A stretch of DNA of 39,316 bases from Nocardioides sp. (GTDB lineage: Bacteria; Actinomycetota; Actinomycetes; Propionibacteriales; Nocardioidaceae), in assembly GCA_017354415.1 (NCBI GenBank), contig JAFMQY010000005.1, forward strand, positions 2,221 through 41,536, in the 5' to 3' direction. This document shows positions 1,951 to 9,426 of this stretch, piece after piece; the stretch's first letter is position 1; each line of letters starts with the position of its first letter. The translations under genes and the position numbers were made by a program. The notes beneath the pieces are model-generated. The model had not been told where the DNA came from, made no database searches, and saw only the letters and a program-made list of their open reading frames with translations.

Positions 1951-2286
1951 TCAGCCTCCTAGCTCGAGCGAGACCAGCATGAGCTCGTCACCGCCCGAGG
2001 TGTCGAGGTCGACTCCCGAGCATGCGGAGCACCGGGCGTAGGGATCCTCCGACTGCGTGGTCGCGCCACAGCCCCGGCAGGTGAGCGTCACCGGCACCAC
2101 GTCGAGCTCGACCAGGGCGTCCTGAGCGACGGTGCCGTCGGCGACCATCTGCCATGCCAGCTGCATCGACTCCGGCACGATGCGCTGGAGCACGCCGGCG
2201 CGGATGCGCACGGAGCGCACGGGTCGCCCGGCGGCGCCCTCCACCGCACCGGGGACCAGACCCTCGCACAAACCGATCTCGTGCAC
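1951..2286 (-). CDS. hypA: Hydrogenase nickel incorporation protein HypA
   Basis: Nickel metallochaperone that, with the GTPase HypB, inserts Ni into the [NiFe] active site. The 111-aa product begins MHEIGLCE, carrying the conserved His2/Glu3 nickel site. Its zinc domain shows two CxxC pairs, CRGC and CSAC, in the C-terminal half (about residues 70-90). It sits between the small membrane protein gene and hypC on the same strand with almost no spacing. No hypB is present next to it, unlike many hyp operons, so HypA here either uses a HypB encoded elsewhere or serves a second hydrogenase too (inference). Confidence 0.95.
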   Translation of the reverse strand: MHEIGLCEGLVPGAVEGAAGRPVRSVRIRAGVLQRIVPESMQLAWQMVADGTVAQDALVELDVVPVTLTCRGCGATTQSEDPYARCSACSGVDLDTSGGDELMLVSLELGG

Positions 2287-2292
2287 CGACGC

Positions 2293-2391
2293 TCACATCC
2301 TGCGCATCTCGAGGTAGCGCTTGATGTCCGGATAGCCGAGGTACAACGCCAGTACGACGCCACCGATCAGGAGCGCGAAGAACCACTTCAT
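2293..2391 (-). CDS. 32-aa membrane microprotein, DUF6893-like
   Basis: A 32-residue product with one hydrophobic segment (FFALLIGGVVLALYLG, about residues 4-19) followed by a charged tail ending YPDIKRYLEMRRM. This tail and length match, from memory, small actinobacterial proteins annotated as DUF6893. The ATG overlaps the stop of the protease gene (ATGA), and the upstream sequence on the coding strand reads GGAGGAGAGGAG, an excellent ribosome binding site at usable spacing, which makes translation credible. It probably sits in the cytoplasmic membrane with the positive C terminus inside. A role in anchoring the hydrogenase or its electron partner at the membrane is possible but is inference only. 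Confidence 0.75.
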   Translation of the reverse strand: MKWFFALLIGGVVLALYLGYPDIKRYLEMRRM

Positions 2392-2942
2392 CTCGATCGA
2401 CTCCTCTCCTCCACGATGTTGCTCACCATGTCCGCCGCGCGATCGACGCTCGTCGCCACGACCTCTGACAGGCCCATCTTCTCGACGAGTACCTGAGGCT
2501 CGCAGCCCACCAGGACGACGTCGCCGAGCTCGCCGCCGAGGCGCGGGACCAGCGACAGCACGGCAGCGGGCGTCATGTCGTGGGCATCGACCATCGCGTC
2601 CTCGTGGGCGTTCTCGTCGGCGTCTGCGGCGTCCGGCTTCACGACGTAGAGGGTGCCCGCGGGCCCGTCTCGGTGGATCGCGTCGACGAGGACGACCAGG
2701 TCGTATCCGTCCAGGAGCTCGTAGGCAAGGTGCACCCCGCGGATGCCGAAGTCCTCCACCTTCACCCCAGGCGGCCAGCTGCGCTCGACCAGTCGCTGCA
2801 GCACGGCGCTGCCGAAGCCGTCGTCGCCCTTGAAGATGTTGCCCAGCCCCGCCACCAGGATCCGGCGCGACGGAAGGGCGTCGTGTGCTTCCCCGTCGTT
2901 GAGATCCAGGGCCACCGACGGGTACGACGCGCGGTCGGTCAC
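2388..2942 (-). CDS. Hydrogenase maturation protease (HyaD/HybD/HycI family)
   Basis: Endopeptidase that removes the C-terminal peptide from the hydrogenase large subunit after nickel insertion. The 184-aa product has the family motif GLGNIFKGDDGFG at about residues 32-44, with an acidic residue in the nickel-sensing position, and the following hydrophobic strand LVVLVDAI. An N-terminal extension of about 25 residues precedes the core. Its expected substrate is the large subunit encoded in this operon, which still carries a cleavable tail after its last motif. The gene overlaps the 465-aa gene upstream by four bases and the microprotein gene downstream by four bases. Confidence 0.93.
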   Translation of the reverse strand: MTDRASYPSVALDLNDGEAHDALPSRRILVAGLGNIFKGDDGFGSAVLQRLVERSWPPGVKVEDFGIRGVHLAYELLDGYDLVVLVDAIHRDGPAGTLYVVKPDAADADENAHEDAMVDAHDMTPAAVLSLVPRLGGELGDVVLVGCEPQVLVEKMGLSEVVATSVDRAADMVSNIVEERSRSR

Positions 2943-4336
2943 GGCGCGACCTCCAGTGGCTCCACCTCGTCCGGCGCGAAGTACAGGTAGCGCCCGTGGG
3001 CGCGCACCAGGTCAGGCGCCGGGTCGTCGTCCACCACGACCGCGAGGTGGCTGCCGCCGTCCACGTCGGAGAACACCGCCGCGACTGTGGCGGCCCGGCC
3101 CGCGAGGAACATGTCCTGGGCGTCCGCGCGTCGCGCGCCCGGCCGGAGGAGGACCCGACTGCCCCGCGCGACCGGTCTGCCATCGACCAGCACCCGGTCG
3201 GTCTCGGGGGAGGCAAGGGCGTCCTGGCCGGGGTCCCACCAGGGGGTGGGCGGCGCTTCGACGGCGGGACCGGAGGATGCGTCGGCAGGGCGCACAGACG
3301 CTCCTCCGGTGACCGCTTCGAGGTAGCGGATGCTGCCGTGCAGCCGGTCGATCATGTCCGCCGGCAGGTCGGCGGTCTCGCCGAGCAGGGCCGCCACGCG
3401 CGGATCCGTGCCGCGCGCCTCACGGCGTTCCTCGTCGGTCATGGTCGACGTCCGCAAGGTCAGCATCTCGTCGATCTCGGTGCCGTCCATGAAGCTCGAC
3501 CTGCTCTCGGGCGCCACCTCTACATGGTCGTACAGGATGATCGGCGCCGACAGCACCAGATCACGGCTGCCCGGGGCTCCCGCCAGCACGGGCCACGTCC
3601 CCACGTTCTCGCACTCGTGGGCAAGGGGCCTGGCCCACTCGGGCGGGTCGAGCAGGGAGAGGAACGCGCCGTGGTCCAGCCTGAGGAGCACGTGTGTGGC
3701 CACCAGGGCGTGCCGCAGGTGGAGGCGGCGTGACCCCGGGCCGTCACCGACGGTGGCCGCCGGGGCCGAGGAGTTCTCCACGCGGACCCGAAGCCGGGCG
3801 GCGCCGTACGGGCCCGGCAGGCTCTGGGCCGACACCTCGACCCGACCCTGGAGGCTCTCCCGCCGGCGGACCAGCATGCCGACGGGCGTGCCGCCTGCAT
3901 CCACCACCGGCTCCTCGCTGGTCCCGGCGGGCATCTCGAAGCGGTGCTCATGCGGACGATCCAGAACGTCCGAGATGCGGCACTCGAGGTCGACCTCGTG
4001 CTCGAGGGCCTCGTCCCAGGGCTGGTGGACGGTGTCGCCCGCCTCGAGGCGGTCGACCCTCCGCAGACCGCCGGCGCTCGCGGCCAGCACCTCGCGGACC
4101 TGGACCTGGAGGAAGCGCACCTTCACCTGGACCGTGCCCCGGGCGCCGTCCAGCAGACAGTCGGTCTGGGACCAGGCCCGCTCCGACGGGTCGTGGTCGA
4201 CGACGGCTGCGGGCATCAGCACCCCGAACTGCCAGCGAACCGCGTTCTTGGCATCGGAGGCGCGATAGGGGTAGAGGGCGTAGCCCTCGTACATCACGGT
4301 GTCGGCCAGCGGGCGCACCTCGTCGAACGTGGTCAC
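2939..4336 (-). CDS. Conserved hydrogenase-operon protein of unknown function, 465 aa
   Basis: Not assigned to a characterised family. The start is a GTG at 4336 overlapping the stop of the DUF6084-type gene (GTGA); the open frame continues further upstream but that part is antisense-like shadow of the neighbour. The N terminus contains EGYALYPYRASDAKN, then a long mixed region, and the last 85 residues form a compact segment (VLVDGRPVARGSRVLLRPG ... VVDDDPAPDL ... YLYFAPDEVEPL) that looks like a small beta-rich domain. No signal peptide or membrane helix is seen. From memory, similar proteins occur in group 1h hydrogenase operons of other actinobacteria as hypothetical proteins. Its position between accessory and maturation genes suggests assembly or complex formation (inference). 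Confidence 0.85.
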   Translation of the reverse strand: MTTFDEVRPLADTVMYEGYALYPYRASDAKNAVRWQFGVLMPAAVVDHDPSERAWSQTDCLLDGARGTVQVKVRFLQVQVREVLAASAGGLRRVDRLEAGDTVHQPWDEALEHEVDLECRISDVLDRPHEHRFEMPAGTSEEPVVDAGGTPVGMLVRRRESLQGRVEVSAQSLPGPYGAARLRVRVENSSAPAATVGDGPGSRRLHLRHALVATHVLLRLDHGAFLSLLDPPEWARPLAHECENVGTWPVLAGAPGSRDLVLSAPIILYDHVEVAPESRSSFMDGTEIDEMLTLRTSTMTDEERREARGTDPRVAALLGETADLPADMIDRLHGSIRYLEAVTGGASVRPADASSGPAVEAPPTPWWDPGQDALASPETDRVLVDGRPVARGSRVLLRPGARRADAQDMFLAGRAATVAAVFSDVDGGSHLAVVVDDDPAPDLVRAHGRYLYFAPDEVEPLEVAP

Positions 4337-4965
4337 TCGTCCGCCTCCTTGAGGAGCCGGTCGACGGTGTCGTCCCACCCGGTGAGGCCGTGACGGCTGC
4401 GGTAGAGGTAGAGCGCGTCGAACCTCTCCCGGCTGAGCCGGAGCCACGCCGTCCCCGGGAAATGCTGCTCCATCGCACTCCGCCACACGGCGACCGGAAG
4501 ATCGAGCCTGGCCTCCTTGTGCCACGGCACCGGGAAGACCGCGATCCCCGCCGGTCCCGTGGTGAACATGGTGCCGCTGAACAGCAGCAGAAGCGGCACG
4601 GTGCCCTGCTCGAGCGCGTAGAGGTACTTGTGGGCGGCCACGTCGACGTCGTAGCTGCACGGGATCTGCAGGACCACGTCCGTCGAGTCGGTGAACCCGG
4701 GCACCATCAGGCTGACGAACGCGAACTGCAACGGCTTGAGCGTGTCTCCCCAGCGGGAACGCTCGCCGAAGAGGTCGGACAAGCGCTCGCCCTCGTCGTC
4801 GTTGTAACCACGACGTACCGGCTCGACGCGCAGCTGGCACCTCAGGGCGAGGCCGTGGATGCTCGCCCCGGTGGTCTCGGTGATGCGGACGTGGACGTTG
4901 ATCGTGGGGCCGATCGCGAAGCGGTCGGCGTCGGCGCCGAGACAGGCGAAGTCGAGGTCGGGCAT
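4333..4965 (-). CDS. DUF6084-type hydrogenase-operon protein
   Basis: A 210-aa protein starting MPDLDFACLGA, without signal peptide or clear membrane helix. The features recognised from memory of the DUF6084 family are the early FAIGPTINVHVRITE strand, RVEPVRRGYND and the central WGDTLKPLQFAF. The function is unknown; the family is known to me only from actinobacterial hydrogenase operons. The N-terminal half resembles a beta-sandwich, which could mean a scaffold or chaperone role (inference). Its start overlaps the DUF5947 gene stop by one base (TGATG) and its stop overlaps the next gene, so all three proteins are made together. Confidence 0.82.
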   Translation of the reverse strand: MPDLDFACLGADADRFAIGPTINVHVRITETTGASIHGLALRCQLRVEPVRRGYNDDEGERLSDLFGERSRWGDTLKPLQFAFVSLMVPGFTDSTDVVLQIPCSYDVDVAAHKYLYALEQGTVPLLLLFSGTMFTTGPAGIAVFPVPWHKEARLDLPVAVWRSAMEQHFPGTAWLRLSRERFDALYLYRSRHGLTGWDDTVDRLLKEADE

Positions 4966-5651
4966 CAGCCGGCCGGGGTGGTCTCGGGGCGGCCGCGGCG
5001 CCGGCTCGGCGACGGTGTGCTGTGCACCCGCAGTGCGGCGAAGAACTCGTCGATCCGCCGCCAGAGCACCTCACCGCCGGAGAAGCCGTCCCAGCTCACG
5101 CGCACGAGACCGGCGAGCTCGTAACAGACGTCGACGGGAACGACGAAGCACTCGACCGTGTCCTCGTGGCGGCGGAGGAGCACCGCCTCGACGTCGTCGG
5201 CGACGTCGTCCAGCACCGGGTTGGCCGCGACGACGTCGGACCACGCCGCCAGGTCGAGCAGCGACTCCGTCGTACCGGCAGGGCCGGGGTAGAACGCCCG
5301 CACCCGGTCGTCGTCCGACTGCCGCATCAGGAAGACCAGGTCAACCGGGATCTGCAGGCCGTCCCACTGGGCCTGCGTCATCGCGAACTCGGCCACGTGG
5401 CGGCTGGCCGTGGGCAGTGCCTTGAACCTGCCCCGTCCGGCGCCCTCGCGGGTGAACAGCAGCGAGCAGGCACGGCAGCAGCACAGCAGCCGGTGACCGT
5501 CGAGGTCGGCGACATGGCCGTGTCGCTCCTCGAGGGCGACGCTGCACATCTCGCAGCGTTCGGTCGGCGCGTCGACGGAACCCGGCGAAGATCCCTGCTC
5601 GCCGGATCCGGGCTGGGCCAGGTTCCGGATCGACCGCAACGAGGACGTCAT
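4965..5651 (-). CDS. DUF5947-type protein with cysteine-rich N-terminal region
   Basis: A 228-aa protein. The ATG at 5651 overlaps the stop of the NifU-like gene (ATGA). Near residues 33-62 it has CEMC, then CCCRACSLLF, a spacing that suggests a zinc ribbon or iron-sulfur site. The rest is acidic and globular, with ALPTASRH and RSDDDRVRAFYPGPAG type segments; the family name is assigned from memory of group 1h hydrogenase operons. No signal peptide or membrane span is visible. The function is not known; the metal-binding cysteines and place directly after the iron-sulfur protein gene suggest an assembly or electron-transfer accessory (inference). Confidence 0.82.
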   Translation of the reverse strand: MTSSLRSIRNLAQPGSGEQGSSPGSVDAPTERCEMCSVALEERHGHVADLDGHRLLCCCRACSLLFTREGAGRGRFKALPTASRHVAEFAMTQAQWDGLQIPVDLVFLMRQSDDDRVRAFYPGPAGTTESLLDLAAWSDVVAANPVLDDVADDVEAVLLRRHEDTVECFVVPVDVCYELAGLVRVSWDGFSGGEVLWRRIDEFFAALRVHSTPSPSRRRGRPETTPAG

Positions 5652-6541
5652 ACCGGCACACCTCGCTGGAGCAGCACCTTCCACCCGCTCCCCTCGGGCA
5701 ACAGGGGGACGGGCGTCAGGTGTTCGTCCTCGTTCGAGAGTGCGCGGCCCGCGGCACGCAGGTCGTAGCGCTCCCGGCAGCGGCCACAGGTGACGACTCC
5801 ATGGGACAGGCTGCCCGTCGAGAGCGCGGTCCCGCAGCCGGCGCACCGGTCGAGGTAGGCGTACGGCGTACCTCCCACGATGCAGACGCAGAGAAGGCTG
5901 CCGTCGACATCGTGCTGACGGAGCACGCCCTCGGCCAGGCCGTCGAGCGTGAGGGTGTGCTCGTCGATCGACGGGGATGCGGCGTCCGCTCCGGGGCGCG
6001 GACCGATCTGCAGCAGCGGAGGTTCGGCCACCATGCCCTGGACATCGATGGACACGACCTCCGGGGCGGCCTCCAGCACGGCCTGCTCGACGGCGCTTCG
6101 TACGGTCAGTGAGGACGACGGACACCCGTCGCAGCTTCCCTCCAGACGCAGGTGGGCCACCTGGTCCGCAGTGACCCCGTCGTAGTGGATGCCGCCCGCA
6201 TGGGACCCGAGGTAGGGCCGCACCCGGTCGAGTGCCCGCTCGATCCGGGTGTCGGTGTTGTCCGGGTGCAGGTCGTGCAGGAGCAGGAGGTTGGCGACCA
6301 CGTCGTCCTCGGCGAGCCGGCGTACCAGCGCCTCGCCGTCGGGGTGCCCGCCTCCCGGCTCGACGTCGTCGAGGATCGTCAGCAGCTGCCGCAGGCCGAC
6401 GGTGTGCAGCGCCACCACGGCACGCACCAGCTCCTCCGCCCGGTCCGATGCCTCGCGGTCGTCGGCATCGCGGAAGGCGTCCAGCAGCGTCTCGACTCGT
6501 TGGGCGTGCTCCTGGATCTCGCGCGCCTTCGATCCCGCCAT
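5648..6541 (-). CDS. NifU-domain / Rieske-like iron-sulfur protein (HhyE-type)
   Basis: A 297-aa protein with two recognisable metal domains. Residues about 98-172 form a NifU C-terminal-like domain with C137xxC140 (GSCDGCPSS), the scaffold motif for iron-sulfur clusters. Residues about 217-266 resemble a Rieske fold (C233AGC236 and C252GRC255 followed by RYDL), but the Rieske histidines are replaced, giving two CxxC pairs. The N-terminal 95 residues are helical and acidic. The start at 6541 has GGAGGAG upstream. In Mycobacterium smegmatis a genetically linked putative iron-sulfur protein, HhyE, is reported to be needed for H2 uptake by the homologous enzyme; this protein may be its counterpart and pass electrons toward the respiratory chain (inference). 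Confidence 0.85.
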   Translation of the reverse strand: MAGSKAREIQEHAQRVETLLDAFRDADDREASDRAEELVRAVVALHTVGLRQLLTILDDVEPGGGHPDGEALVRRLAEDDVVANLLLLHDLHPDNTDTRIERALDRVRPYLGSHAGGIHYDGVTADQVAHLRLEGSCDGCPSSSLTVRSAVEQAVLEAAPEVVSIDVQGMVAEPPLLQIGPRPGADAASPSIDEHTLTLDGLAEGVLRQHDVDGSLLCVCIVGGTPYAYLDRCAGCGTALSTGSLSHGVVTCGRCRERYDLRAAGRALSNEDEHLTPVPLLPEGSGWKVLLQRGVPV

Positions 6542-6558
6542 CGGCTCCTCCGCCTTGC

Positions 6559-8361
6559 TCAGTAGGGCTTGACGGCCATCGCCGGCGAGTGTGTCTGCTG
6601 CACCGTGCCCTTTCCGGTGAACATGTGCACTCCGCACGGGAGACAGGGGTCGAAGCTGCGCACGGCACGCATGATGTCGATGCCCTTGAACGACTCGGGC
6701 GGGTTCTCCTCGAAGATCGGAGTGTTCTGCACGGCGTCCTCGTAGGGCCCCGGCGTCCCGTAGACGTCGCGGACGCTTCCGTTCCACGGCGTGGGCGGAT
6801 AGGGGTGGTAGTTCGCGATCTTGCCGTCCCGGATCACCATGTGGTGGGAGAGCACGCCGCGCACCGCCTCGGTGAACCCGCAGCTGATCGCCTCCTCCGG
6901 GACGGTGAACGGCGTCCAGGTCTCGGTGCGGCCGGCGCGGACTTCCGCGAGTGCCTTCTCCACCGCGTGCAGCGCGATTCCGGCACTGTAGGCCTGGAAG
7001 TACGTCCTGGCCCGGTTGCGCTCGATCGCGTTGCTCCACTGGGGAATCTTCCACTCGAAGGTGACCTCGGGCTTCAGAGCCGTCCGCGGTAGGGTGATCA
7101 CCACGCTGTTCCCGGTGGCGCGTACGTACCCGACGTCGACCAGTCCCGAGAGCGCCGTCGACCACAGGCGGGCGATCGGCCCGCCACCGGTGTCGAGCGC
7201 GAGGTAGTCGGTGCCGTCGAACCAGCGCGGTGACATGGTCCAGCTGTAGGCATGGTCGAAGTCGCGCTTCGCCGGCTTGGGGATCGTGTGCTGGTTCCAT
7301 GGGTGCCGGCGGTCGATGGCGTTGCCGAGAGGGTCGCGCTCCACGAACACCTCGTAGTCACCTCCGTCAGCCCAGTCCTCGTAGTACGAGTGGCCGAGCA
7401 GGATCCGAAGGCCGAGGTTGATGTCGACGAGGTCGTTGGTGACGAGCTTCCCGTCGACGATGACACCGGGGGTGACGAACATCTTCCTCCCCCAGTTGCC
7501 CATGTTCCGATAGGTGAAGTCACAGTGCTCCGGGTCGTTGAGCGATCCCCAGCATCCGAGCAGCACCCGCCGTTGCCCTACCTGCTCGTAGCCGGGGAGT
7601 GCCTCGTAGAAGAAGTCGAACAGGTCGTCGTGCAGCGGCACGACCTTCTTCATGAACTCCACGTAGCGCATCAGCCGGGTCAGGTAGTCGGTGAACAGCT
7701 GGACGGTCGCCACGGTGCCGACGCCACCGGCGTAGAGCGTCGAGGGATGGACGTGCCGCCCCTCCATCAGGCAGAACATCTCCCGGGTCATCCGGCTGAC
7801 CTGCAAGGCCTCGCGGTAGAACTCGCCCTCGAGCGGGTTGAGCGACCGCATGATGTCGCCGATCGTCCGGTACCCGTGGTCGCCGGCGTGCGGCGCCTCG
7901 GTGCTGTTCGCCCGCTCCAGGACGCCGGGGTTGGTCTCCTTCACCATGCGTTCGCAGTAGTCCACCCCGACCAGGTTCTCCTGGAAGATGTTGTGGTCGA
8001 ACATGTACTCAGCGGCCTCGCCGAGGTTGATGATCCACTCTCCCAGGTGCGGCGGCGCGATGCCGTAGGCCATGTTCTGGTTGTAGACCGAGCAGGTCGC
8101 GTGGTTGTCGCCGCAGATGCCGCAGATGCGGCTGGTGATGAAGTGAGCGTCGCGGGGGTCCTTGCCCTTCATGAAGATGCTGTAGCCCCGGAAGATCGAC
8201 GAGGTGCTGTGGCACTCACGCACCTCCTTGGCCTTGAAGTCGATCTTGGCGTAGATGCCGAGACTTCCCACGATCCTGGTGATCGGGTCCCATGCCATCT
8301 CCACCACGTCGGTGGACTCGGTCTGAGCCGCGGTGTCCCGGGACTGCTTCGTTGTCGTCAT
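6559..8361 (-). CDS. hhyL: [NiFe] hydrogenase large subunit, group 1h
   Basis: Catalytic subunit that oxidises H2 at a NiFe(CN)2CO centre. The 600-aa product has both nickel-ligand motifs: L1 RICGICGDNH (C80 and C83) and L2 DPCLPCGVH (C572 and C575). After His578 a 22-residue tail starting MFTGKG remains, which the protease encoded in the same operon should remove. The form of L1 and L2 fits the actinobacterial group 1h (formerly group 5) enzymes, known for oxygen-insensitive uptake of atmospheric H2 during starvation. It follows the small-subunit gene after 12 bases. No frame damage or missing ligand is seen, so the enzyme should be functional. Confidence 0.96.
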   Translation of the reverse strand: MTTTKQSRDTAAQTESTDVVEMAWDPITRIVGSLGIYAKIDFKAKEVRECHSTSSIFRGYSIFMKGKDPRDAHFITSRICGICGDNHATCSVYNQNMAYGIAPPHLGEWIINLGEAAEYMFDHNIFQENLVGVDYCERMVKETNPGVLERANSTEAPHAGDHGYRTIGDIMRSLNPLEGEFYREALQVSRMTREMFCLMEGRHVHPSTLYAGGVGTVATVQLFTDYLTRLMRYVEFMKKVVPLHDDLFDFFYEALPGYEQVGQRRVLLGCWGSLNDPEHCDFTYRNMGNWGRKMFVTPGVIVDGKLVTNDLVDINLGLRILLGHSYYEDWADGGDYEVFVERDPLGNAIDRRHPWNQHTIPKPAKRDFDHAYSWTMSPRWFDGTDYLALDTGGGPIARLWSTALSGLVDVGYVRATGNSVVITLPRTALKPEVTFEWKIPQWSNAIERNRARTYFQAYSAGIALHAVEKALAEVRAGRTETWTPFTVPEEAISCGFTEAVRGVLSHHMVIRDGKIANYHPYPPTPWNGSVRDVYGTPGPYEDAVQNTPIFEENPPESFKGIDIMRAVRSFDPCLPCGVHMFTGKGTVQQTHSPAMAVKPY

Positions 8362-8373
8362 CGCCGCACCCGC

Positions 8374-9426
8374 CTACCAGGTCTTCTCGTATCCGGTGAG
8401 CAGCGTGGAGCCCTTCTGGCGCCAGCGCGGCTCCTTGTCGACCGTCTTCGCCGTGATCCCTCTCAACCGCCGGATGACCGTCCCGTACATCGTGCTGGCG
8501 GTCGACGAGACCCTGCTTCCCGGCGGCTCGTCCATGAACGGCATGAACTTGTCGGGGAAGCCAGGCATCGTGCACGCGATGCAGATACCGCCGACGTTCG
8601 GGCACCCGCCGACGCCGTTGATCCAGCCGCGCTTGGGCACGTTGCACTTGACGACCGGGCCCCAACAGCCGAGCTTGACCAGGCACTTCGGCGAGCCGTA
8701 GCCCTCGGCGAAGTCGCCCTGCTCGTAGTAGCCGGCTCGGTCACAGCCCTCGTGCACGGTGGCCTCGAACAGCCAGCGCGGCCGGAGTGCCTCGTCGAGC
8801 GGGATCATCGGTGCCTGCCCGGCCACCTGGTACAGCAGATAGACCAGCGTCTCGGACAGGTTGTCCGGGTGGATCGGGCAGCCCGGGACACACACGATCG
8901 GGAGCCCTGCCTTCGACGTCCACTCCCACCCGAGGTAGTCGGGCACACCCATCGCTCCGGTGGGGTTGCCGGCCATCGCGTGGATGCCGCCGTACGTCGC
9001 GCAGGTGCCGACGGCGACGATCGCGGTGGCCTTGGGGGCGAGCCGGTCGAGCCACTCGGACGTCGTCATGGGCTGTCCGGTCGCGGGGTTGTTGCCGAAC
9101 CCGCACCAGTAACCCTCCTCCTTGATCGACTCGTTCGGGATGGATCCCTCCACCACGAGCACGAACGGCTCGAGCTCGCCGCGGTCGGCCTTGTGCCACC
9201 ACTCGATGAACGTGTCGGCCCCCTGCTCGGGACCGCACTCGAAGTCGATGAGGGGCCAGTGGACTGCGATCTTCGGCAACCCGGGCAGTGCGCCGAGGAC
9301 GATCTCCTCGATGCTGGGCTGGGTCGCCGCCGTCAGGGCCACCGAGTCGCCGTCGCAGCTCAGGCCGGCATTGATCCACAAGATGTGGAGCACCGCCTGC
9401 TCGGTCTCCTCCGCAGTCGCTGTCAT
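8374..9426 (-). CDS. hhyS: [NiFe] hydrogenase small subunit, group 1h
   Basis: Electron-transferring subunit holding three iron-sulfur clusters in line from the active site. The start MTATAEETEQ at 9426 follows a GAGGTGG stretch; upstream in-frame codons would add unconserved sequence. The 350-aa product has no twin-arginine signal, so the enzyme stays in the cytoplasm. The first cluster motif reads GLSCDGDSV, where usual small subunits have CxxC; in the structurally known actinobacterial-type enzyme from Ralstonia an Asp replaces one Cys of the proximal cluster, which fits. Further ligands are seen in VGTCATYGG, VPGCPIHPDN, and the C-terminal cysteine-rich block with HEGC, GSPKC, KLGCWGP, GGCPN and CIACTMPGFPD. 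First gene of the operon. Confidence 0.95.
   Translation of the reverse strand: MTATAEETEQAVLHILWINAGLSCDGDSVALTAATQPSIEEIVLGALPGLPKIAVHWPLIDFECGPEQGADTFIEWWHKADRGELEPFVLVVEGSIPNESIKEEGYWCGFGNNPATGQPMTTSEWLDRLAPKATAIVAVGTCATYGGIHAMAGNPTGAMGVPDYLGWEWTSKAGLPIVCVPGCPIHPDNLSETLVYLLYQVAGQAPMIPLDEALRPRWLFEATVHEGCDRAGYYEQGDFAEGYGSPKCLVKLGCWGPVVKCNVPKRGWINGVGGCPNVGGICIACTMPGFPDKFMPFMDEPPGSRVSSTASTMYGTVIRRLRGITAKTVDKEPRWRQKGSTLLTGYEKTW

Follow-up and report, generated by a model that had tools for sequence, protein, structure and literature searches.

HhyE of a Nocardioides group 1h hydrogenase operon joins a NifU domain to a predicted Rieske-fold domain with a putative single-metal four-cysteine site

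Group 1h [NiFe]-hydrogenases help remove H2 from air, and HhyE is a helper protein needed for such H2 use by soil bacteria. HhyE and HucE were described in 2019 (PMC6883350, cited here, like most papers below, from partial text). Both carry a NifU-type CxxC, which is accompanied in HhyE by two C-terminal CxxC motifs likened to rubredoxins and in HucE by a Rieske motif, and truncated versions of HhyE with the NifU part alone were noted as well. Whether HhyE acts as a wire or as a builder is stated in that paper as an undecided question. NifU/Rieske genes beside hydrogenases also appear in tables of PMC12727194 and PMC12976888, and HhyE is not mentioned in PMC13098282. Among the papers listed by literature searches, which covered mainly open-access main text, none gave a metal-site report for HhyE or HucE.

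We analyzed a 39,316-nucleotide stretch of Nocardioides DNA (contig JAFMQY010000005.1; hereafter the window), in which a reading frame of 297 aa is open on the minus strand of positions 5648 to 6541, while the plus strand of this interval is broken by a stop. The gene lies in a compact operon, whose features, with the parts of hhyE indicated, are as follows.

8374-9426, minus strand: hhyS, hydrogenase small subunit (Pfam PF14720 and PF01058)
6559-8361, minus strand: hhyL, group 1h [NiFe]-hydrogenase large subunit
5648-6541, minus strand: hhyE, 297 aa plus stop, ATG at 6541
6047-6244, minus strand: NifU C-terminal (Nfu) domain of HhyE, residues 100-165 (PF01106, 65.5 bits, E 4.7e-18, cut-off 27)
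6122-6133, minus strand: C137xxC140 of the NifU domain
5651-5971, minus strand: predicted Rieske-fold C-terminal domain of HhyE, residues 191-297
5834-5845, minus strand: first predicted metal loop, C233-A-G-C236 (CxxC)
5777-5788, minus strand: second predicted metal loop, C252-G-R-C255 (CxxC)
4965-5651, minus strand: DUF5947 protein (PF19372, 223.9 bits), with a 4-base overlap at the 3' end of hhyE
4333-4965, minus strand: DUF6084 protein (PF19562, 294.1 bits)
2939-4336, minus strand: 465-aa protein without a Pfam match
2388-2942, minus strand: hydrogenase maturation protease (PF01750, TIGR00072)
2293-2391, minus strand: DUF6893 protein of 32 aa (PF21833)
1951-2286, minus strand: hypA, nickel metallochaperone (PF01155)

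The hhyL product scored 1068.7 bits against 5aa5 (HofG), which we take to be the R. eutropha group 1h hydrogenase, the next distinct sequence reaching 152.5 bits. Because it is so much closer to 5aa5, we assigned the window hydrogenase to group 1h. A group 1h hydrogenase gene thus stands next to hhyE, as expected of HhyE, and judged by sequence the hhyE product is the HhyE of this high-affinity hydrogenase operon; its combination of a NifU domain with four C-terminal cysteines is that of an already published family, rediscovered here. The two best named relatives, among the best 80 of 500 confirmed matches, come from Nocardioides. Across the loci of these 80 relatives, hhyL adjoins hhyE in all 80, DUF5947 and DUF6084 were found in 77 each, and the 465-aa protein was found in 69. 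DUF5947 has a conserved metal-like pattern of its own (C33xxC36, H44xH46, and C57xC59xxC62), each residue of which is kept in 83 to 87 of 88 rows of an alignment that left out matches of 100 bits or less; the pattern is also kept in eight loci that pair DUF5947 with an HhyE lacking the C-terminal domain. On the plus strand, at 9-1701 beside hypA, two overlapping frames resemble by eye an ABC permease and its ATPase.

The original prediction had placed a NifU-type CxxC at residues 137 to 140 and, in the same chain, a Rieske-like site with cysteines at 233, 236, 252, and 255 followed by RYDL. All of these residues are present in the minus-strand translation. In an alignment of 81 rows (the window protein and 80 relatives, a set that leans to close relatives as the best 80 of 500 confirmed matches), C137 and C140 are cysteine throughout, and together with the Pfam match this bears out the NifU-type site; among 146 distinct proteins of a wider set, C137 is cysteine in 144 and C140 in all. 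The C-terminal cysteines are conserved as well, as the comparison of homologues proposed with the prediction would have them, with 80 rows for C233, 80 for C236, 81 for C252, and 79 for C255. All four are kept in 79 of the 80 domain-bearing proteins, or 79 of 81 rows when L085 is included. The exceptions are L085, which has no C-terminal domain and whose cysteine in column 252 is coincidental, and L040 (Nocardioides ungokensis), which lacks the fourth cysteine and reads CPSGH for the second CxxC. The hhyL gene of L040 is spread over several frames, and with this gene frame-broken we did not rely on L040 as a true loss.

The proposal that cysteines replace the Rieske histidines holds for the second histidine, which is replaced in place. 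The place of the first is occupied by G235, with the cysteine at 236; column 235 is variable (12 residue types in 81 rows), and histidine occurs there in just three rows, each time beside C236. A direct His-to-Cys swap at both positions was therefore ruled out for the first histidine. The protein reads CxxC...CxxC rather than the CxH...CxxH of Rieske ligands; it has the four cysteines as two CxxC expected of a rubredoxin, and its first loop is not the CxH of HucE. The spacings between neighboring cysteines are 3, 16, and 3, with 19 from first to third, which gives offsets of 0, 3, 19, and 22. The C233-C252 distance is 19 in 82 of the 108 four-cysteine members of the wider set and 18 to 27 in the rest, and 7 of the 108 have one CxC loop.

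As a single sequence, HhyE matched the Pfam Rieske family over residues 203-269 below the cut-off of 20.3 (14.7 bits for the whole protein, 17.5 as a domain). The family is matched at E 0.1 or better by 63 of 66 members retained when the alignment of 81 rows was reduced, and a profile of the C-terminal domain matched Rieske ferredoxins by sequence in a PDB profile search (E 4.5e-9). From these 66 sequences, AlphaFold2 modeled whole HhyE with a mean pLDDT of 89.3 and a pTM of 0.62, a value that leaves the mutual placement of the domains uncertain, and the C-terminal domain alone with a mean pLDDT of 92.6 and a pTM of 0.83. With both models, Foldseek returned Rieske-fold proteins among the 50 matches listed for each, ferredoxins first, and VIA-align placed the C-terminal model on 2qpz with a Z of 15.7 and an rmsd of 2.0 Å over 101 aligned residues (target length 103). 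Since fold, profile, and family Pfam matches all point to Rieske proteins, the C-terminal domain is, by these sequence and model comparisons, a Rieske domain by descent; the structure prediction named in the original prediction thus returned a Rieske fold and not an unrelated one. Rubredoxin ancestry of the tail is not the best reading, as Rieske ferredoxins lead the profile and fold searches. No rubredoxin was found among the matches listed by the profile, Foldseek, and VIA-align searches, whose upper rows are Rieske folds, although this is not proof of absence. Zinc ribbons appear lower in the PDB profile list (the LysW-like chain 5k2m, at E 0.014), and a LysW-like zinc ribbon profile was matched by 23 of the 66 members.

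What metal site to expect in HhyE follows directly from an engineered Rieske protein. The H44I/K45C/H64C mutant of S. solfataricus ARF forms a thermostable, rubredoxin-like mononuclear Fe(Cys)4 site (PMC2946596), and its cysteines 42, 45, 61, and 64 are in the register of HhyE 233, 236, 252, and 255. When cysteines were placed at both histidine positions (H44C/H64C), cluster assembly was largely impaired; the H64C mutant shows that a Rieske-like site can take [2Fe-2S] with mixed ligands, and mononuclear sites of the triple-mutant type are marked Fe/Zn (PMC2946596). Because the register of HhyE gave Fe(Cys)4 and H44C/H64C largely failed, we infer by analogy that the C-terminal site would hold one metal ion, as Fe(Cys)4 or Zn(Cys)4, rather than [2Fe-2S]. 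A zinc or rubredoxin-like center, offered in the original prediction as the alternative, is the better reading of the two. The site may work like a rubredoxin, with no claim to membership of that family. On the features tested, in sequence and model, the protein is a member of the HhyE family that is Rieske by fold yet lacks the ligands of a Rieske cluster.

We then considered the family more widely. After frames of <100 aa, matches of <90 bits, and copies sharing the same 100-aa stretch were dropped, 227 loci yielded the 146 distinct proteins, the window protein included. By their loops, 108 are four-cysteine proteins, 12 have CxH and CxxH, 9 read C...CPWH(G/N)C, 16 are NifU-only (one of them, L148, at a contig end), and one, L040, has three cysteines. 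The nine (L031, L032, L033, L034, L037, L141, L145, L212, and L213) represent a third ligand set, which lacks the first histidine and carries an extra cysteine at +5 in all nine. In operons of this kind (L121, L122, L124, L238, and L239), the group 1 hydrogenase resembles HhyL only about half as closely; its large subunit has 5aa5 as the nearest match (517.9 bits) and scores 172 bits against E. coli Hyd-1. We suspect that this enzyme belongs to group 1l. Its subgroup was not settled from the part of PMC10305171 consulted, and none is claimed.

The neighboring hydrogenases differ with the ligand set. In seven of eight C...CxxHxC loci the adjoining large subunit scored 292 to 525 bits against HhyL, the eighth (L120) ending too early for a call, and DUF5947, DUF6084, and the 465-aa protein were not found in any of the eight. 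All eight CxH/CxxH loci adjoin a large subunit of 46 to 65 bits; the assignment of these HucE-type loci to group 2a rests on the published association and the low HhyL scores, not on a classifier. HucE-type and HhyE-type operons occur together in the genome G095 (L243 and L244). The 11 NifU-only genes whose neighborhoods were read (L085, L131, and L228-L236) adjoin a large subunit of 427 to 1240 bits, the lowest-scoring of which, at L235, is cut by a contig end.

A tree was built from the N-terminal and NifU columns only, with the ligand loops left out, for 84 of the 146 rows (thinned at 62% identity for four-cysteine rows and 90% for the rest). One branch (96/99) set the CxH/CxxH rows apart and a second branch (95/25; weak by SH-aLRT) the C...CxxHxC rows, and the 46 four-cysteine rows, the three-cysteine row, and 15 of the 16 NifU-only rows fell together (100/98). 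As the tree is midpoint-rooted, it was the Rieske descent of the domain that gave the direction of ligand change. Some of the NifU-only branches arise close to the base of the group 1h side, so the C-terminal domain may possibly be a late gain on this side instead of having been lost. As the tree requires at least five changes of the NifU-only label, and DUF5947 lies downstream in 9 of the 11 loci (L085, L228, and L230-L236), we rejected the explanation of truncated HhyE as assembly artefacts in general. Of the remaining two, L229 stops at its contig end, and in L131 (G099, 6412-7818) the NifU-only frame continues into DUF6084 and DUF5947 was not found, possibly a deletion or an assembly fault.

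Three observations stand apart. Stand-alone matches to the C-terminal domain at L246 (G474) and L247 (G452), with no hydrogenase match nearby, are perhaps ordinary Rieske ferredoxins; both score <90 bits and enter no count. A four-cysteine NifU-Rieske fragment in G028 (L006, L125) lies beside a run of N, and no hydrogenase subunit was found within reach or by a search of the genome. The genome of L075 (G355) is titled Candidatus Melainabacteria, but the places returned by a search of its phylum coincided with those sampled from the phylum of the window, and the title looks wrong.

Because the first surveys used NifU-like or whole-protein queries, which could not show the NifU half kept with the other half lost, we made an unanchored search with HhyL across 386 genomes from the phylum of the window (53 with a match) and 151 from that of the L118 genome (22 with a match). 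Fifty of the 52 matches listed at about 800 bits or more were read (G987:C321 and G144:C8 were left out). Beside hhyL, 31 loci have NifU plus the C-terminal domain, 16 have NifU only (including L270 and L286, which lie where a contig ends), 3 have neither within 1.5 kb (L259, L260, and L296), and in no case does the C-terminal domain stand alone. A degenerate NifU-like match (L036) was found elsewhere in the L259 genome. A NifU domain therefore lies near 47 of the 50 group-1h-type large subunits and a C-terminal domain near 31, and all 31 of these domains have the four cysteines (the window's own included, its loops read from the translation). A contig-end fragment, L304, has a four-cysteine domain without a NifU match. 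Near large subunits of about 290 to 545 bits, any C-terminal domain found is of the C...CxxHxC kind (L305, L310, L315). In the stretch read, many large subunits of about 370 to 545 bits lack a NifU-Rieske gene (e.g., L309, L316, and L319), so the link between the third ligand set and its hydrogenase type runs one way only. Large subunits of about 470 to 530 bits occur two or three to a genome in G346 (L316, L319, L320) and G197 (L309, L312), several with no NifU-Rieske gene nearby. Among 59 genomes of the window's genus, any NifU domain was found in 8, and the genome of the window (90.6% complete) has that of HhyE only; a close HhyL was found in 2 of the 59, each with an adjoining NifU domain, and the other 6 NifU-bearing genomes have no close HhyL.

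We give an even chance to the reading that HhyE works mainly in hydrogenase assembly and carries a single-metal four-cysteine C-terminal site. Nfu domains in general carry an Fe-S cluster. That of HhyE would carry its cluster via C137/C140 and pass it on to HhyS, and the C-terminal domain would dock to the target, or supply electrons or structural support, and by its help let clusters be built in air, a role comparable to that of the rubredoxin-like maturase HoxR. HhyE may additionally be a bound electron relay. Several findings lead us to favor aerobic Fe-S assembly, at these even chances, over an obligatory relay, which we consider less likely: the Nfu half is kept oftener than the Rieske-fold half beside group-1h-type subunits; 11 NifU-only loci adjoin hhyL, 9 of them with DUF5947; only 8 of the 59 genus genomes have any NifU domain, and that of the window has only the one in HhyE; menaquinone is reduced directly by purified Huc (HucL, HucS, and HucM), and HucE goes unmentioned in the part of PMC10017518 consulted; and HoxR, associated in air with the proximal cluster (PMC10583674), sets a precedent. 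Assembly has evidence against it, too. Native gels are cited for co-localization of HhyL, HhyS, and HhyE (PMC6883350), and hhyE lies inside the structural operon. The NifU part is not universal, as 3 of the 50 loci have neither domain, and NifU domains are not confined to the Hhy system, given that only 2 of the 8 NifU-bearing genus genomes have a close HhyL. Huc is a group 2a enzyme, so its independence of HucE need not extend to Hhy, and HucE is required in the cell (PMC6883350). The possible late gain of the C-terminal domain also counts against the overall reading, as do, for its single-metal site, the CxC loops, the missing fourth cysteine of L040, and the mixed-ligand [2Fe-2S] that Rieske-like sites can take.

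The nature of the metal leaves room for a structural zinc without a redox role, which would make the domain a docking module; we regard this as a sizeable possibility that still falls short of an even one. The CxC loops in 7 of 108 members and the one loss of a fourth cysteine are consistent with it, as are the 19 of 50 hhyL loci in which the C-terminal domain was not found, the LysW-like zinc ribbon matches, and the Fe/Zn label of such mononuclear sites in PMC2946596. However, the Rieske ancestry and the redox setting favor iron, and sequence alone cannot separate Zn from Fe.

That HhyE is the electron relay of the hydrogenase would fit its conserved metal motifs, its essentiality, its position in the structural operon beside HhyL in 80 of 80 loci, and the cited native-gel co-localization. 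The authors of PMC6883350 favor electron transfer, with the acceptor role a hypothesis and assembly named as the alternative. In M. smegmatis, however, deletion of hhyE abolishes Hhy activity, which is missing as well from gels stained with NBT, an artificial acceptor, and complementation restores it (PMC6883350); the failure of NBT to bypass the deletion speaks against a relay, as do the 16 of 50 group-1h-type operons with the NifU part alone and the direct reduction of menaquinone by the sister enzyme Huc. We find the relay doubtful for these reasons.

A low-potential all-cysteine [2Fe-2S] cluster in the Rieske fold, the main case of the original prediction, concerns the site and not the role, and appears improbable. 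The predicted Rieske fold and the mixed-ligand [2Fe-2S] of ARF H64C speak for it, but cluster assembly was largely unsuccessful in the H44C/H64C mutant, and the register of HhyE itself gave mononuclear Fe(Cys)4 (PMC2946596), which leaves this part of the prediction unsupported. Incidental cysteines or an artefact gene, for which only the weak single-sequence Rieske score speaks, are refuted almost beyond doubt by the conservation of the four cysteines (79 of 80 domain-bearing proteins, 31 of 31 domains beside hhyL) and the confidently predicted fold.

With assembly and a single metal as the preferred reading for HhyE, we tentatively propose, at somewhat less than even chances, that one hydrogenase-assembly family re-ligated its Rieske fold, with three ligand sets by hydrogenase type: 2Cys-2His with HucE-type operons, four Cys in the ARF triple-mutant register with group 1h, and C...CxxHxC with another group 1 hydrogenase. 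Among the loci read, every set forms a single clade, and the ligands follow the hydrogenase type wherever the C-terminal domain is present, the domain itself being often absent; the site may match the enzyme served. The natural NifU-only versions of HhyE provide a ready domain-deletion comparison.

Compared with known systems, HhyE shares its fold over about 100 residues with Rieske-type dioxygenase ferredoxins (2qpz, 5bok, and 3gce), which have 2Cys-2His ligands and no NifU domain, whereas HhyE has four cysteines and a NifU domain. Rubredoxins have about 28 residues between their two CxxC, against 15 in HhyE, which has its motifs on a predicted Rieske fold; two CxxC are common to HhyE, rubredoxins, and HoxR, and a part in hydrogenase assembly would be common with HoxR (PMC10583674). 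HucE of group 2a likewise joins NifU to a Rieske-derived domain beside a hydrogenase, but the 12 HucE-type proteins with CxH and CxxH form a clade separate from HhyE; the HucE motif is printed as CxH(x15-18)CxxC in the text of PMC6883350, whereas the proteins classed here have CxxH. The engineered ARF triple mutant has its cysteines at +0, +3, +19, and +22 on a Rieske fold, as HhyE does, but is a man-made, free-standing domain, whereas that of HhyE is natural and joined to NifU. The published HhyE (MSMEG_2718 type), compared by description, has in common with the window protein the NifU CxxC, the two C-terminal CxxC, and the hhyL neighbor; in the part of PMC6883350 consulted, its motifs are likened to rubredoxins with a Rieske fold unstated, and no essential difference from the window protein was found. 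Relative to that paper and the others cited, as far as their consulted parts go, three points are new: a predicted Rieske fold for the tail of HhyE, the correspondence of its cysteines with those of the ARF triple mutant, and a third set of ligands.
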